Positions 157 through 6,010 of a DNA stretch of 6,569 bases are shown here, one piece after another. The DNA comes from Desulfobacteraceae bacterium (GTDB lineage Bacteria > Desulfobacterota > Desulfobacteria > Desulfobacterales > Desulfobacteraceae), in NCBI GenBank assembly GCA_015486915.1, contig WFQS01000236.1, positions 1 through 6,569 on the forward strand. The letters are read 5' to 3'. The notes under the pieces were generated by a model. It saw only the letters and a list, made by a program, of their open reading frames with translations, did not search any database and was not told where the DNA came from. The position numbers and the translations under genes are program-made. Numbering within the stretch: position 1 is the first letter of the stretch; each line of letters begins with the position of its first letter.

Positions 157-185
157 TTGACTTTTCACTTAATACAAAATATTTA
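157..185 (+). promoter_or_regulatory. Sigma70-type promoter of the riboswitch-cbiZ unit
   Basis: TTGACT (157-162) and TATTTA (180-185) are separated by exactly 17 bases. Transcription would start near 191-193, immediately before the first paired base of the cobalamin riboswitch at 194, which is where an aptamer transcript should begin. The -35 box is close to consensus and the -10 box is moderate. No other promoter candidate of this quality was seen between 1 and 194. Confidence 0.65.
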
Positions 186-193
186 AATACTCA

Positions 194-382
194 TTCAGGT
201 GCTTTTCAGCATAAAATGGAACTCCGTTAAATTCGGAGGCGGACCCGCCGCTGTAATCGTGGACGAAAACCGAAAAAGCCACTGACCGGTAAAACTGCTC
301 ATCCTCTTAAAGAAGCAGGGTTAATACCGGTTGGGAAGGTTCGGCAATTAGGAAGATACGAAAGCCAGAAGACATGCCTGAA
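194..382 (+). promoter_or_regulatory. Cobalamin (B12) riboswitch aptamer
   Basis: Conserved landmarks appear in family order. There is a closing stem TTCAGG (194-199) with CCTGAA (377-382); a CTCCG/CGGAG arm (222-226 with 234-238); a core GGCGGACCCGCCGCTGTAA (238-256); GCCACTG (278-284); a long arm with ACCGGTA pairing to TACCGGT and an inner CTGC/GCAG; then TGGGAAGG (332-339); and the B12-box-like AAGCCAGAAGACATGCCTG (362-380). In this family adenosylcobalamin or a related corrinoid usually binds the RNA and switches off downstream uptake or synthesis genes. Downstream lies a BtuF-CbiZ fusion, a fitting target. No canonical expression platform directly follows; the only strong terminator is about 220 nt further on. 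Confidence 0.95.
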
Positions 383-542
383 CAAAGCAGTGTGTGACCC
401 TTGTGAATGTTCTGTAGGGCACTATTTCAAAAAAAGGCTTTGATTTGAGTTTTGTGAGTTTTGTGAATTCATAAAATTCCATTTTTAAAATTTGAGCCTG
501 GCATTGAAATCATAGGCAGACAGGGCATTATTAAAGGTTGCG
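383..542 (+). other. Long untranslated leader segment, no assigned function
   Basis: This lies between the riboswitch and a short ORF. I see no gene, no tRNA and no second riboswitch class I can name. It contains a possible small stem (GCCT at 496-499 with AGGC at about 514-517) and the ribosome-binding site AAAGG (533-537) of the ORF at 543. It could be decayed sequence of a former transporter gene or an extended regulatory leader; the sequence alone does not decide. Confidence 0.4.
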
Positions 543-660
543 ATGAATATCCTCGAGGTTAAGGAACGCTGTGCATATAAAAATATTTGGATATAAAAAC
601 GGATATCCCTTTATCGATGTTTTCGGTGAAGGGATTTTTTTATCTGTAATGTATACTATC
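543..660 (+). pseudogene. Leader ORF resembling a decayed ABC ATPase (BtuD/FecE-type) N-terminus
   Basis: The ATG at 543 has AAAGG five bases upstream and opens 17 codons (MNILEVKERCAYKNIWI) ending at TAA 594-596. The peptide reads like the first strand of BtuD/FhuC-type ABC ATPases, which commonly begin with a MxxLEVKxLxFxYK pattern. Shifting frame after the stop gives KTDIPLSMFSVKGFF, like the usual KDISLSV-KGEFF stretch. A further one-base shift in the seven-T run gives LSVM, where a Walker A region normally follows with IGPNGSGKS. That motif itself is not readable. A corrinoid ABC ATPase would fit the operon before a BtuF domain. The alternative is a genuine regulatory leader peptide, because the same bases form a good terminator. 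This is eye alignment only. Confidence 0.35.
605..641 (+). terminator. Intrinsic terminator inside the riboswitch leader
   Basis: A 13-bp stem, 605-617 with 623-635, has a five-base loop and two G-U pairs and runs into seven T (635-641). It lies between the riboswitch and the first full gene, so it could serve as a transcription attenuator for the downstream genes. A weaker competing hairpin, GGATAT (589-594) with ATATCC (603-608), overlaps its 5' arm. That hairpin also overlaps the stop codon of the 17-codon ORF, so ribosome position or aptamer folding could shift the balance. The control link is inferred; the hairpin itself is plain. Confidence 0.75.
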
Positions 661-714: not shown

Positions 715-1014
715 ATGAACCAGTATAACCCTAAAATTTTCAGCACTTCAGACTCCTGTTCTTTGGACAAGGATTGTCCGGTTTACACAATAATTGACGG
801 AAAATTGTTTCGGACAGCTTTTCATCCCCTTGGATGGTCTGAATTCCCAGATTATTATTTTGGTGATGATGGAAAAATATACAGGACAAAGTATAACAAG
901 CTTGGCTTTGGCAGTAAACCCGATTATGAATTCAGTAAAGACGGAAAAATATATCGTACAAAAAATCATCCGGATGGATTCAGGGATCATCCCGATTATG
1001 AAATCAGAGATTAA
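715..1014 (+). CDS. Small repeat protein: three 24-residue DGK-YRT-PDY repeats, unknown function
   Basis: The 99-residue protein starts at an ATG with a strong AAAGGAG (701-707) seven bases upstream. After a 27-residue lead, the rest is three repeats of exactly 24 residues: 28-51, 52-75 and 76-99. Each follows the pattern DGK(I/L)(Y/F)RT, a variable stretch with a fixed G, then PDY and an aromatic or aliphatic residue. The third repeat ends at the stop codon. Residues 18-27 (DKDCPVYTII) look like a worn half-repeat. There is no signal peptide or membrane segment. The spacing of short beta-prone pieces with turns (DGK, PDY) suggests a small all-beta repeat fold. It ends 27 bases before the BtuF-CbiZ gene and lies behind the same riboswitch, so a corrinoid-related role is possible by position only. 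I do not recognise the family. Confidence 0.8.
   Translation: MNQYNPKIFSTSDSCSLDKDCPVYTIIDGKLFRTAFHPLGWSEFPDYYFGDDGKIYRTKYNKLGFGSKPDYEFSKDGKIYRTKNHPDGFRDHPDYEIRD
796..1011 (+). repeat. Three tandem 72-bp coding repeats
   Basis: Units at 796-867, 868-939 and 940-1011 encode the three 24-residue repeats with no linker. The last two are closest: both start with the same GACGGAAAAATATA-type stretch (one base differs) and both contain CCCGATTATGAA. The exact period and the different wear of each unit point to internal duplication followed by divergence under selection for the protein pattern. Confidence 0.85.
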
Positions 1015-1041: not shown

Positions 1042-3087
1042 ATGCAAATAAAAAAAAATTTACGCATTCCCATGTGCTGTATAATTGTTTTCTGGTTATT
1101 GACTTTCTGCACCACATCAATTGCCGCGTATCCTGTAAGTATTCAGGATTCAAAAGGGAATCATTTAGTATTTGCAAGCCAGCCGCAGGCCGTAGTATCT
1201 CTTGTGCCTTCGGCTGCTGAAATTCTTTTTAAAATTGGTGCAAAAAAATTTATTAAAGCCATTACCTATCATGACTGCACTCTGAAAGGTGCTGAAGGTA
1301 AACTCATAGCAGGCGGGTTTTTCAGCCCAAGCCTTGAAAAAATAAAATCAGTTTCACCTGATTTGATCATCCTCTCACCCATTCACAAAAATTTAATTAA
1401 AATTTTTAAACAAACAGATTGTAAATTATTTGTTTTTAAAACATCTTCCATTGAAGACTCTTATAGAAACATAAGGGCACTTGGAAAGATATTTAATCGT
1501 GAAAATCAGGCGGAAAAGGTAATTAAAGAAAATATATCCGAAATAAATCATATAAAACTGAAACTTGCCGGAATTAAGAATTTAAAGAGGAAAAGGGTTA
1601 TGCGGCTTATGGGAAAAAAAACCATAATGACACCGGGAAGCGATTCTTTCCAGAATGAGATAATACGTGCCGCAGGAGGTATCTCCCCTGATTTTGGGAA
1701 AAAGGGAGATATTGTACAGGTTACAAAAAAAGAATGGATGAATTTTAACCCTGAGTTTATTTACGGGTGTACCCCTGAAAAAAAACTGGCAAAAAAAATT
1801 TTCCAGCAACCCGGGTGGAAAGATGTTGCCGCTGTGAAAAACAGAAGAATTTATTTTTTCCCCTGTGACTTAACATGCAGGGCTTCCACCAACACAGGAT
1901 ATTTTGTATCCTGGCTGTCCTCTGAAATTTATACAGATGAATTTTCCAATCCGGAAAACGATATACTTTCCACTGGCATCACCCGGAAAAGGCCATTAAA
2001 AGTTAATCTTGAATATGTCAGATCTGCCGCAATATACTACAGCAATATTTTTGATTTTGAGAATAAAACTCTTTTAATTGATTTTAAATCTCCCATGAAA
2101 ATTGTTTCAACTCTGGAAGGCTCCCGGGATAATATCACAAGTATTGCAAATCATTTTACTCCGCCGCCTACATGGGGACCAGGCTATAAAACAGGAATTG
2201 ACCATTTAAGGTCATCTATTTTAAAAGCAGTTAACAGGCAGGCAAAGAGCACTTCATTATTAATAACCGGTGCTGATATGGATAAACTTTCCATTCAGAC
2301 GCAAAGCTATAAGGATATGAAAGTTTACGCCTTTGTCACGGCAGGGGTCATGGGAAATGCCCAGAGAATGTCGAAAGATACCGGCAGGTTTTATGAACCA
2401 GGAACTATAAATATCATAATTATTACCAACATGAAACTTTCCCAAAGAGCAATGACACGGGCAATCATCACGGCCACGGAAGGAAAAACAGCAGCACTTG
2501 ATGACCTGGATATCAGATCAAGCTTTACCCCTGGGATAAATGAGGCCACGGGAACGGGCACGGATAATGTCCTTGTGGTGCAGGGATGCGGTGTAAAAAT
2601 AGACAACACCGGCGGACATTCAAAGATGGGCGAATTGATTGCAAAGGCGGTCTATACAGGTGTTAAAGAGGCAGTGCTGAAACAGAACGGAATTTATGCA
2701 GAACGGTCTGTTTTTCAACGCCTTAAGGAAAGAAAAATCAACATATATCAACTTGTAAGTGGTGCCGGCTGCGCCTGTGCCTGCAAAAACGATAATTTTG
2801 CAGCCATGGTGGAACATATTCTCCTGGAACCTGAATACGCTGGTTTTATAGAGGCTTCACTTGCCATAAGTGATGAATATGAAAAAGGATTAATCAAGGA
2901 TCTCACCTCATTTAAAATGTGGTGCACAAATATTGCCGAATCCATTGCAGGGACAAGGATTGAAAAAATTAATGATATTATTTCGAACGACACTCTGCCA
3001 ATGCCGGTAAAAACAGCTCTTAATGCCATTATGACCGGTATAAAGGTACGACAATTATTTAATTATAAAAAAAAGAGTAAAATGTGA
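1042..3087 (+). CDS. cbiZ: Exported BtuF-CbiZ fusion: corrinoid-binding domain plus adenosylcobinamide amidohydrolase
   Basis: The 681-residue protein starts at an ATG with AAGGGA (1032-1037) four bases upstream. Residues 1-28 are a Sec signal peptide: basic start, hydrophobic core 12-23, SIA/A cleavage. The cysteine at 23 lacks a proper lipobox. Residues 32-300 are a BtuF-type periplasmic binding domain, with VVSLVPSAAEILFKIGA (51-67), a lysine-rich backbone helix (about 137-190) and PGWKDVAAVKNRRIY (257-271). Residues about 320-550 match CbiZ, with NITSIANHF (364-372), ATGTGTDNVLVVQGCG (502-517) and GGHSKMGELIAKAVY (524-538). CbiZ removes the aminopropanol arm from (adenosyl)cobinamide, giving cobyric acid that can be rebuilt with a new lower ligand. 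Residues 551-670 are an extra tail with three near-adjacent cysteines (577, 579, 581). The riboswitch upstream supports a corrinoid role. The export signal would place the amidase outside the cytoplasm, unlike classic CbiZ. No permease or ATPase is adjacent. Confidence 0.9.
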   Translation: MQIKKNLRIPMCCIIVFWLLTFCTTSIAAYPVSIQDSKGNHLVFASQPQAVVSLVPSAAEILFKIGAKKFIKAITYHDCTLKGAEGKLIAGGFFSPSLEKIKSVSPDLIILSPIHKNLIKIFKQTDCKLFVFKTSSIEDSYRNIRALGKIFNRENQAEKVIKENISEINHIKLKLAGIKNLKRKRVMRLMGKKTIMTPGSDSFQNEIIRAAGGISPDFGKKGDIVQVTKKEWMNFNPEFIYGCTPEKKLAKKIFQQPGWKDVAAVKNRRIYFFPCDLTCRASTNTGYFVSWLSSEIYTDEFSNPENDILSTGITRKRPLKVNLEYVRSAAIYYSNIFDFENKTLLIDFKSPMKIVSTLEGSRDNITSIANHFTPPPTWGPGYKTGIDHLRSSILKAVNRQAKSTSLLITGADMDKLSIQTQSYKDMKVYAFVTAGVMGNAQRMSKDTGRFYEPGTINIIIITNMKLSQRAMTRAIITATEGKTAALDDLDIRSSFTPGINEATGTGTDNVLVVQGCGVKIDNTGGHSKMGELIAKAVYTGVKEAVLKQNGIYAERSVFQRLKERKINIYQLVSGAGCACACKNDNFAAMVEHILLEPEYAGFIEASLAISDEYEKGLIKDLTSFKMWCTNIAESIAGTRIEKINDIISNDTLPMPVKTALNAIMTGIKVRQLFNYKKKSKM

Positions 3088-3161: not shown

Positions 3162-3316
3162 TCACAGAGTCTGCATGCGGTCAAGTTCCTTTATGATTTC
3201 ATCTGGTAAATGTTCAGGACGGTGTTTCATCTTTTCAAGGGTCAATTCTTGAAGCCTTTTTTCCATTGTTTTTTCTCCGGCATTCTGCCAGTTCGCAAAG
3301 ACATCCCGTTCAAGCG
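3162..3316 (-). pseudogene. C-terminal stub of an MttB-family corrinoid-dependent methyltransferase
   Basis: Reading on the - strand from 3316 to a TGA at 3162-3164, the frame encodes about 50 residues beginning LERDVFANWQNAGEK and continuing with a lysine/glutamate-rich helix, then HRPEHLPDEIIKELDRM and the stop. This resembles the end of trimethylamine or glycine-betaine methyltransferase (MttB superfamily) proteins: a DR-x-W-x-x-G segment, a helix, and a KPEPLP-x-x-x-x-x-ELDR tail. Full proteins are near 480-500 residues, so about nine tenths is missing. The frame meets TAA (3330-3332) just inside repeat copy B, and no start codon or ribosome-binding site suits it. It is a relic whose upstream part was replaced by the repeat. 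The family call is from recall, not a search. Confidence 0.6.
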
Positions 3317-3400
3317 GATCTGAACTGCGTTACAGCACCTCTCAGCGAACATAAAAAGAGCATCAGTTACTCTGTCAAAAGTGAGCTCTTTCTTATAAAA
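3317..3400 (+). repeat. Direct repeat copy B flanking the corrinoid cassette
   Basis: This is the partner of the repeat at 44-142, in the same orientation about 3.27 kb away. It has the same two blocks (3317-3335 and 3346-3400) but lacks the roughly 15-base middle. Its left palindrome arm is absent: the bases before 3317 are the MttB-like stub instead. That makes position 3316/3317 a likely rearrangement breakpoint. Confidence 0.85.
3355..3391 (-). terminator. Hairpin terminator for the - strand usp transcript, within repeat copy B
   Basis: Read on the - strand, AAAGAGCTCA (3391-3382) pairs with TGATGCTCTTT (3365-3355) around one bulged base and ends in a run of five T (3357-3353). It lies about 50 bases after the stop codon of the universal stress protein gene, with no gene between. 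The identical hairpin in copy A suggests the repeat family can carry terminators from place to place. Confidence 0.55.
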
Positions 3401-3986: not shown

Positions 3987-4439
3987 TTAAATATAAGCTG
4001 CATTGCATAGTTTCTGTAAATCCCGCGCCTTTAATTTAAAGGACTTGTCATGAACACCGGGATTTAAAAAAAGTTGGTCCTGCTTGAGGAGCGCTTTGTC
4101 CATATATACGGGTAAAGGATCTTTATGGCCGAAAGGAGGTACACATCCTACTTCGCATCCAACGCTTTCCAGGACTTTGTCAGGCTTTGCAAATGAGACT
4201 TTTTTTGTTCCTATTCCGGCAGCGGCTTCTTTCCAGTTCACCCTTTTGTTCCCGGGAAGGACAAGAACCACCATCTGTTTTTCCTTTGTTAACAGAACAA
4301 GGGATTTTACGGTTTCAGCTTCACTTACATTCAAAGCTTCAGCCATTGCAGGATTGGTAAAAACCGGTTCGTGATTAAAAACTTCATAGGAAATTTTATT
4401 GTCTTCAAGCATTTTTACAATATTTTCCTCAAGTGTCAT
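3987..4439 (-). CDS. YbaK/ProX-type aminoacyl-tRNA deacylase
   Basis: The 150-residue cytoplasmic editing protein belongs to the YbaK/EbsC/prolyl-tRNA deacylase superfamily, which hydrolyses mischarged tRNAs such as Cys- or Ala-tRNA(Pro). It shows NHEPVFTNPAMAEALNV (22-38), the conserved lysine K45 in TVKSLVL, GCVPPFGH (98-105), YMD (112-114) and NPGVHDKSFKL (126-136), in the usual order and at normal family length. Start choice: the reading frame is open upstream to 4742, but GGAG eight bases before this ATG (AAAGGAGAAAAGCAA-ATG) and the exact start of the fold mark 4439 as the true start. Upstream is a truncated CCG-domain fragment in the same frame, so a longer fusion could also be made. 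The exact tRNA substrate is not decided. Confidence 0.88.
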   Translation of the reverse strand: MTLEENIVKMLEDNKISYEVFNHEPVFTNPAMAEALNVSEAETVKSLVLLTKEKQMVVLVLPGNKRVNWKEAAAGIGTKKVSFAKPDKVLESVGCEVGCVPPFGHKDPLPVYMDKALLKQDQLFLNPGVHDKSFKLKARDLQKLCNAAYI

Positions 4440-4742
4440 TTGCTTTTCTCCTTTCATCTTTTGGTTGCAACTCTTGGGGACCTTAACTGTCACCTTTTTT
4501 TCCGTTTCCATGATTCCGTCATTTAACATAACAGCACAGAAAGGACATGCAGATATCACAGTTTCTGCATTAGTTGCAACAATTTCTTTTGCACGCACAT
4601 TATTTATCCTCTCCCCGATATTCTCCTCCATGAACATTCTGCCCCAGCCTGCACCGCAGCACATCACCTTAGATCTGTTTTTCTCAATTTCAATAAGAAA
4701 ATTTTCAGCATAGGGTTTATTACACATAAACGGCACGTCCAT
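4440..4742 (-). pseudogene. Truncated CCG-domain fragment of an HdrD-like Fe-S oxidoreductase
   Basis: About 100 codons resemble the last part of HdrD/GlpC-like Fe-S proteins. CCGAGWGRMFMEENIGERIN (28-47) is followed by ISACPFC (63-69). CCG to CxxC spacing is 35 residues, as in the family motif Cx31-39-CCG-x35-36-CxxC. The first cysteine of that motif is missing; the only upstream cysteine is C7, 20 residues before CCG. An in-frame TGA directly precedes the ATG at 4742, so the N-terminal ferredoxin, any membrane part and the first CCG domain are gone. Intact relatives often sit beside etfAB and pass electrons from acyl-CoA oxidation toward menaquinone, matching the neighbour etfA 51 bases upstream. 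The frame runs into the YbaK-type gene with no stop. It is most likely a relic, though a small expressed CCG protein or fusion is possible. Confidence 0.7.
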
Positions 4743-5962: not shown

Positions 5963-6000
5963 TGAGGCAAATCCGGGCAAATTCAGATCGGCCTCATGGC
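5963..6000 (-). repeat. REP-like palindrome between etfB and etfA, related to copies A and B
   Basis: On the - strand it reads GCCATGAGGCCGATCTGAA, then a variable middle, then TGCCTCA and an A-rich run. Bases 34-69 of the window show the same frame (GCCATGAGGCAGATCCGAA ... TGCCTCA plus A run). Arms GAGGC and GCCTC pair; the loop is diverged. It lacks the second block found in copies A and B. It does not look like a terminator, since no T run follows in the direction of the etf genes, so it may be a dispersed palindrome tolerated in a co-transcribed gap. Confidence 0.6.
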
Positions 6001-6010
6001 AGTTATTGTG

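Follow-up and report, generated by a model that had tools for sequence, protein, structure and literature searches.

The analysed stretch of 6,569 nucleotides (contig WFQS01000236.1, called the window below) carries a gene of a Desulfobacula-related bacterium for a protein in which a predicted signal peptide, a BtuF-like substrate-binding domain and a CbiZ amidohydrolase domain follow one another. We consider it fairly probable that this protein performs an exported step of cobamide salvage, which can be summarised as capture, cut and hand over. The original prediction had read all three parts in a single frame of 681 codons, and this was borne out by Pfam and by a signal-peptide rule; the C-terminal domain (residues ~556-679) and the riboswitch upstream of the gene are additions to it. 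The features of the window were as follows.

180..395, + strand: cobalamin riboswitch aptamer (RF00174; cmscan 93.4 bits, gathering score 31.5)
605..635, + strand: hairpin with T run, resembling an intrinsic terminator (fold z-score -4.56)
715..1014, + strand: ORF of 99 aa with three 24-residue repeats (DNA repeat family D1, spacing 72)
1042..3087, + strand: BtuF-CbiZ fusion gene, 681 aa, ATG start (ORF list, Pfam and homologues)
1042..1128, + strand: residues 1-29, predicted signal peptide of SPase I-like type with its cleavage site near A28/A29 (by our own rule, not SignalP)
1192..1863, + strand: BtuF-like substrate-binding domain, residues 51-274 (Peripla_BP_2, PF01497; 77.7 bits, cut-off 27.5)
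2083..2664, + strand: CbiZ amidohydrolase domain, residues 348-541 (PF01955; profile positions 2-191 of 191, 172.7 bits, cut-off 27)
2404..2406, + strand: codon of Thr455 within EPG-T-IN, ahead of a beta strand; proposed nucleophile (invariance and predicted strand)
2707..3078, + strand: C-terminal helical domain, putatively PgpA/CobZ-like, residues ~556-679

A search with the window protein returned 1513 homologues at E<=1e-3, and the best 120 of these 1513 all carry both domains. A chance fusion, or an artefact of frame or assembly, was rejected on the strength of these homologues.

Export of the fusion by its signal peptide is likely, as predicted from the N-termini of the family. The window protein begins with MQIKKNLRIPMCCIIVFWLLTFCTTSIAA, followed by YP after the predicted cleavage site, and has a positive n-region, a hydrophobic core and an SPase I-like c-region that ends in SIAA before the Y. 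It passed the self-written rule that was used throughout in place of SignalP and which considers as many as eight start codons for each ORF. No match to a lipobox was found in this N-terminus. An inner membrane-spanning stretch is not likely either, the maximum of the 19-residue mean hydropathy after the signal being 1.30, and a topology in which the chain returns through the membrane was rejected for the window protein on this value; values of 1.6-1.72 were reached beyond the signal in 7 of 74 fusions. The rule was passed by 63 of the 68 assessable fusion ORFs, six further fusion ORFs and two others having been excluded for a cut 5' end. Among the five that failed, the N-terminus was missing or short in L050, L072 and L089, and a charge lay within the hydrophobic core in L092 and L109. 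As controls, lone BtuFs passed in 35 of 38 cases, ABC ATPases in 0 of 23 and uncut CbiZ ORFs without BtuF in 1 of 18. The same was seen at 28 new loci from across the phylum (L128-L155), where 11 of 12 fusions passed (the exception being L146) and none of 15 uncut CbiZs without BtuF did.

Two further kinds of protein bear on the location of CbiZ. In L073, L075 and L126, and in five relatives of 930-983 aa that were read, the order BtuF-CbiZ-BtuF is found in one frame, and the last domain matches the separate BtuF of the Desulfobacula contig L002, which has a hydrophobic N-terminus of its own. Since BtuF domains stand on both sides of CbiZ in these chains, little room is left for a cytoplasmic CbiZ. 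The single CbiZ without BtuF that passed the rule among the 18 controls (L122:7795-9111, + strand) has a signal peptide of its own as well as a low-complexity insert near its C-terminus, and the gene that comes 4 bp downstream encodes a BtuF. The opposite reading is that the hydrophobic N-terminus is no working signal and that the fusion acts after import like a standard CbiZ. In its favour, CbiZ proteins with known biochemistry act in the cytoplasm. Conversion is likewise described as following import in PMC8620254. Against it stand the signal rule with its controls, the chains with CbiZ between two BtuF domains, the independently secreted L122 protein and the fact that BtuF-type proteins work in the periplasm, so that we find a cytoplasmic fusion barely credible. 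The export proposed in the original prediction is thus upheld, as a prediction, by the window N-terminus, by the family and by these two unusual architectures. Three cysteines, C243, C275 and C279 (codons 1768-1770, 1864-1866 and 1876-1878), were found to be invariant in 65 of 65 aligned fusions of this exported protein; they might form a disulfide or bind a metal.

The CbiZ domain was compared in two chosen sets of sequences, 65 fusions (A1) and 62 CbiZs, both exported and non-exported (A2). All CbiZ columns invariant in A2 are kept in the window. T455, the TGTGTD run (503-508), E480, K482 and H526 are the same in 62 of 62 sequences of A2 and in 65 of 65 of A1. The original prediction was to be abandoned if active-site residues were missing, and on this point it held, every invariant residue being present as judged from a 62-sequence alignment composed without a biochemically characterised CbiZ. 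A degenerate CbiZ was rejected for the same reason. The domain might nevertheless have been turned into a second corrinoid-binding or chaperone module without catalysis. A long branch (1.77) lies between cytoplasmic CbiZ and the exported clade, and an adenosylated substrate is expected to be rare outside the cytoplasm, both of which agree with such a module; however, the residues listed above are kept in all 65 aligned fusions and binding is already supplied by the BtuF domain, and we regard a non-catalytic role as improbable. Adenosylation of cobamides is a cytoplasmic process, and a catalytic domain in the periplasm would need to accept a hydroxo or other form. The CbiZ rate quoted in PMC7733943 was given for an adenosylated cobamide, and this mismatch is the chief difficulty of the periplasmic reading.

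A sequence search of the PDB gave no match to the CbiZ part, and a search with the A2 profile gave only two weak hits to unrelated proteins (E 0.43 and 1.4). Structure prediction, which had been proposed as a check, gave for this domain a model with a pLDDT of 93.8 and a fold of the DmpA/NylC type. Over its whole length, the VIA-align scores were 13.0 for Nyl50, 12.2 for ThnT, 12.1 for NylC, 11.7 for BapA, 11.3 for ornithine acetyltransferase and 11.1 for DmpA, with the next structure at only 8.2. Foldseek also ranked the P1 family first (E 1.4e-4), at low TM-scores of ~0.25-0.33. An hhalign comparison of CbiZ with Peptidase_S58 (PF03576) was weak (probability 3%, P 0.015) and aligned T455 with G-S or N-T in that family. 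The motif EPG-T455-IN opens a predicted strand (456-462). Hydrolases of the P1 family use an N-terminal Thr or Ser freed by self-cleavage and need neither metal nor ATP. Taken from the model, CbiZ is probably a cofactor-free hydrolase of the Ntn type, with Thr455 as the likely nucleophile on the basis of fold and invariance, and self-cleavage at G454-T455 is possible; we know of no report of self-cleavage in a CbiZ. In two relatives (L091:7662-9875, - strand; L113:1491-3776, + strand) insertions lie directly before the (P)GT motif, in the proposed nucleophile loop. The predicted fold thereby points to a catalytic residue that can be tested in CbiZ, for which the PDB searches by sequence gave no relative.

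The combination of a Peripla_BP_2 domain with a predicted signal peptide is what is expected of BtuF and other class III substrate-binding proteins. Vitamin B12-binding proteins are among its PDB relatives, with binders of iron complexes and siderophores scoring higher. Of the E. coli BtuF residues that we take to form the corrinoid pocket, W66 is replaced by an aromatic residue, Phe or Tyr, at 65 of the 68 fused domains; W85, F168 and W196 are hardly or not kept. Since the pocket aromatics are mostly changed and iron-complex binders are nearer in the PDB, corrinoid binding by the fused BtuF is best called presumed. E72 and E202 of E. coli BtuF are presumably its contacts to BtuC, on which a literature search yielded no paper. 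All 42 other BtuF domains from the fetched loci have both glutamates; this comparison set comprises every BtuF-like protein there plus three C-terminal domains and reaches beyond the fusion operons. Among 68 N-terminal fused domains, 17 have Glu and 19 have Asp at the E72 equivalent, and 44 have Glu at the E202 equivalent (L043, L050, L054, L065, L072, L078 and further fusions truncated ahead of the domain are left out of this count). The window domain has Glu at the first and Lys at the second position and so lacks the full pair.

These residues fit a division of labour, as far as sequence can suggest it, in which the fused BtuF binds for cutting and a second BtuF docks. Alternatively, the fused BtuF could itself dock on BtuCD while CbiZ trims the docked cargo, a second BtuF, where present, merely widening the substrate range. 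This arrangement would be consistent with the Glu kept in the window at the E72 equivalent, with the Glu at the E202 equivalent in 44 of 68 fused domains and with the 35 of 55 fusion loci in which the 1 kb downstream contains no further BtuF. The lower count at the E72 equivalent, set against the complete pair in 42 of 42 other BtuF domains, and the Lys in the window speak against it, and we think it rather unlikely, preferring a docking role for the second BtuF.

No BtuB, second BtuF, BtuC or BtuD was found in the window by ORF list and Pfam, and the next gene downstream of the fusion is a universal stress protein on the opposite strand. Further on (3987-4742, - strand), beside ETF genes, part of a CCG cysteine-rich domain and a YbaK-type tRNA-editing domain share a single frame, which represents either an unusual fusion or a remnant. 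On the Desulfobacula contig L002, a riboswitch is followed in turn by a TonB receptor, a 99-aa ORF, BtuF-CbiZ, BtuF and BtuC. Neighbours were counted for 73 fusion ORFs, excluding the window, with the loci that had enough flanking sequence as denominators. A BtuB-like receptor lay within 2.5 kb upstream of the fusion in 35 of 59 loci and was absent there in 24; some of these TonB receptors may serve other substrates, as they were called by similarity to one receptor. Downstream, 20 of 55 loci had BtuF within 1 kb, 21 had BtuC within 2.5 kb and 18 had both, the pair being missing in 37. Of 38 loci, 30 had at least one of BtuB, BtuF and BtuC on the same strand and no more than 5 kb away. Among eight signal-less CbiZs of ~390 aa, the BtuF and BtuC pair was downstream in one and no BtuB was upstream in seven.

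The hairpin at 605..635 is likely the expression platform of the cobalamin riboswitch. Of 26 scanned fusion loci, 24 had a riboswitch of this class in the 6 kb upstream, on the strand of the fusion and at a distance of 5.3 kb in L071; the 26 loci were drawn from 74 fusion ORFs and scanned in addition to L002 and the window, and the two without a hit were L117 and L084. The 99-aa repeat protein between riboswitch and fusion had no match in Pfam or NCBIfam. A protein 72% identical to it precedes BtuF-CbiZ directly at L002:7648-7944, and it recurs in other B12-related loci (L044:13445-13723 and L099:698-940, both - strand). The segment from the riboswitch to BtuF-CbiZ is bracketed by a repeat (41-142 and 3314-3400 of the window) made of two parts, one of 28 nt with 86% and one of 55 nt with 95% identity; an inverted partial copy of the repeat's start lies at 5982-6006. 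The repeat had no copy in the fetched loci and may be a mobile or terminator-like element. A promoter scan gave 4 sites, as compared with 3.6 in shuffled sequence.

An exported enzyme of this kind could also destroy cobamides that the cell cannot use, denying them to competitors, or supply neighbours with cobyric acid, for which the lack of transporter genes in the window and the loci with BtuB as sole neighbour might be quoted. The riboswitch in 24 of 26 loci, the neighbouring BtuB and BtuF-BtuC genes and the presence of CbiB and CobS in the same genomes point the other way, and denial or sharing appears very improbable. CbiB and CobS were each found in 55 of 57 fusion genomes (57 of the 67 having been searched), and cobyric acid could therefore be completed there. 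CbiB is not specific to these genomes, since it was also present in 20 of 28 comparison genomes.

The distribution of the fusion was followed in 241 genomes from the order of Desulfobacula genome G002 at a completeness filter of 85. CbiZ was found in 81 of them, 67 of which carry the BtuF-CbiZ fusion and 11 other forms of CbiZ. In two more, a CbiZ of the fusion type was seen without BtuF, cut by the contig end in G053 and being the secreted L122 protein in G021; G209, whose two CbiZ fragments were outside the fetched set, belongs to none of these classes. Of the 67 fusion genomes, 62 showed no CbiZ lacking BtuF, with the proviso that the genomes may be incomplete; the exceptions were G049, G067, G071, G134 and G199. 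Two fusions each were present in 4 of the 67. A draw across the phylum gave CbiZ in 81 of 395 genomes, with many open frames of 660-780 residues; a single-protein scan of genome contigs gave 3 loci only. In the tree, for which 46 of 73 fusion-type rows were used (the window and 45 taken at random, L113, L091, L094, L089 and L092 being left out), exported CbiZ, that is the fusions and L122, formed a clade of its own apart from two signal-less CbiZ clades. Support was 99/98 for the whole exported clade and 97/93 for a 36-row set with L122 inside. The ~390-aa CbiZs without signal peptide (L095-L101 and L103) form a separate clade, and their extra C-terminal region showed no match to that of the fusions. 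This distribution suggests that the fusion is widespread in Desulfobacula-type relatives and that lower ligands are trimmed there ahead of import.

A sequence of steps can be proposed from these observations. Cobalamin riboswitches permit transcription at low cobalamin, and scarcity would thus switch on the fusion gene. The protein, predicted to be exported by Sec, would bind through its BtuF-like domain a cobamide or cobinamide delivered to the periplasm by a TonB receptor. The tethered CbiZ would then hydrolyse the aminopropanol amide and release cobyric acid, which is the reaction of characterised CbiZ. A second BtuF, either separate or fused at the C-terminus, would pass the product to BtuCD, as the operons and docking residues suggest, and CbiB, CobU and CobS would rebuild cobyric acid with the cell's own lower ligand. 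A periplasmic cut followed by import of cobyric acid fits the operons, the CbiB in 55 of 57 genomes and the docking residues, and we infer it from sequence comparison. The wider proposal is more tentative and, in our judgement, falls a little short of an even chance: that Desulfobacula-type bacteria and others in the phylum share a widespread route of stripping first and importing later, with Thr455 serving as nucleophile of a cofactor-free Ntn-type CbiZ tethered to BtuF, and with cobyric acid in place of a complete cobamide taken up through a second BtuF and BtuCD, and that BtuF-CbiZ-BtuF proteins unite capture, cutting and delivery in one chain.

Remodelling of cobamides is generally taken to follow import. 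Were the first cut to take place outside, one importer could serve many cobamides, with cobyric acid as the molecule imported, and genome-based predictions that place CbiZ in the cytoplasm would need correcting for a large group of bacteria. Searches of open-licence papers turned up neither a title nor an abstract on a BtuF-CbiZ fusion, an exported CbiZ or a BtuF-CbiZ-BtuF protein. Automatic annotation, in the JGI names of homologues, already gives such proteins a double function, and a link between CbiZ and uptake was proposed earlier (PMC7733943).

Among known systems, E. coli BtuF (b0158) belongs to the same superfamily and is exported, with ~20% identity over the domain; unlike it, the fusion carries an enzyme, its pocket aromatics are mostly different and its docking glutamates are often lost. 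DmpA, BapA, NylC and ThnT of the P1 family (PF03576) and ornithine acetyltransferase have no significant sequence similarity to CbiZ. CbiS (NF038002) joins CbiZ to CobZ, and the fusion may likewise continue behind CbiZ with a CobZ/PgpA-like region; the CbiS model aligns with residues 344-622; identity with CbiS was rejected at 81.4 bits against a cut-off of 250. To our knowledge CbiS has not been described as exported. CbiR of Akkermansia muciniphila, according to PMC7733943, begins cobamide remodelling by removal of the lower ligand and is an enzyme of the AP-endonuclease superfamily that cuts the phosphoribosyl bond. Both CbiR and the fusion would thus remove lower ligands, CbiR at the phosphoribosyl bond and CbiZ at the amide. 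With CbiZ itself (PF01955; Methanosarcina mazei, Rhodobacter sphaeroides), the window protein shares a full-length domain and the invariant residues, and release of cobyric acid is expected from it; it differs from this adenosylcobinamide amidohydrolase in its predicted export, in the BtuF domain in front and the putatively PgpA/CobZ-like domain behind, and in its place in a clade of its own.
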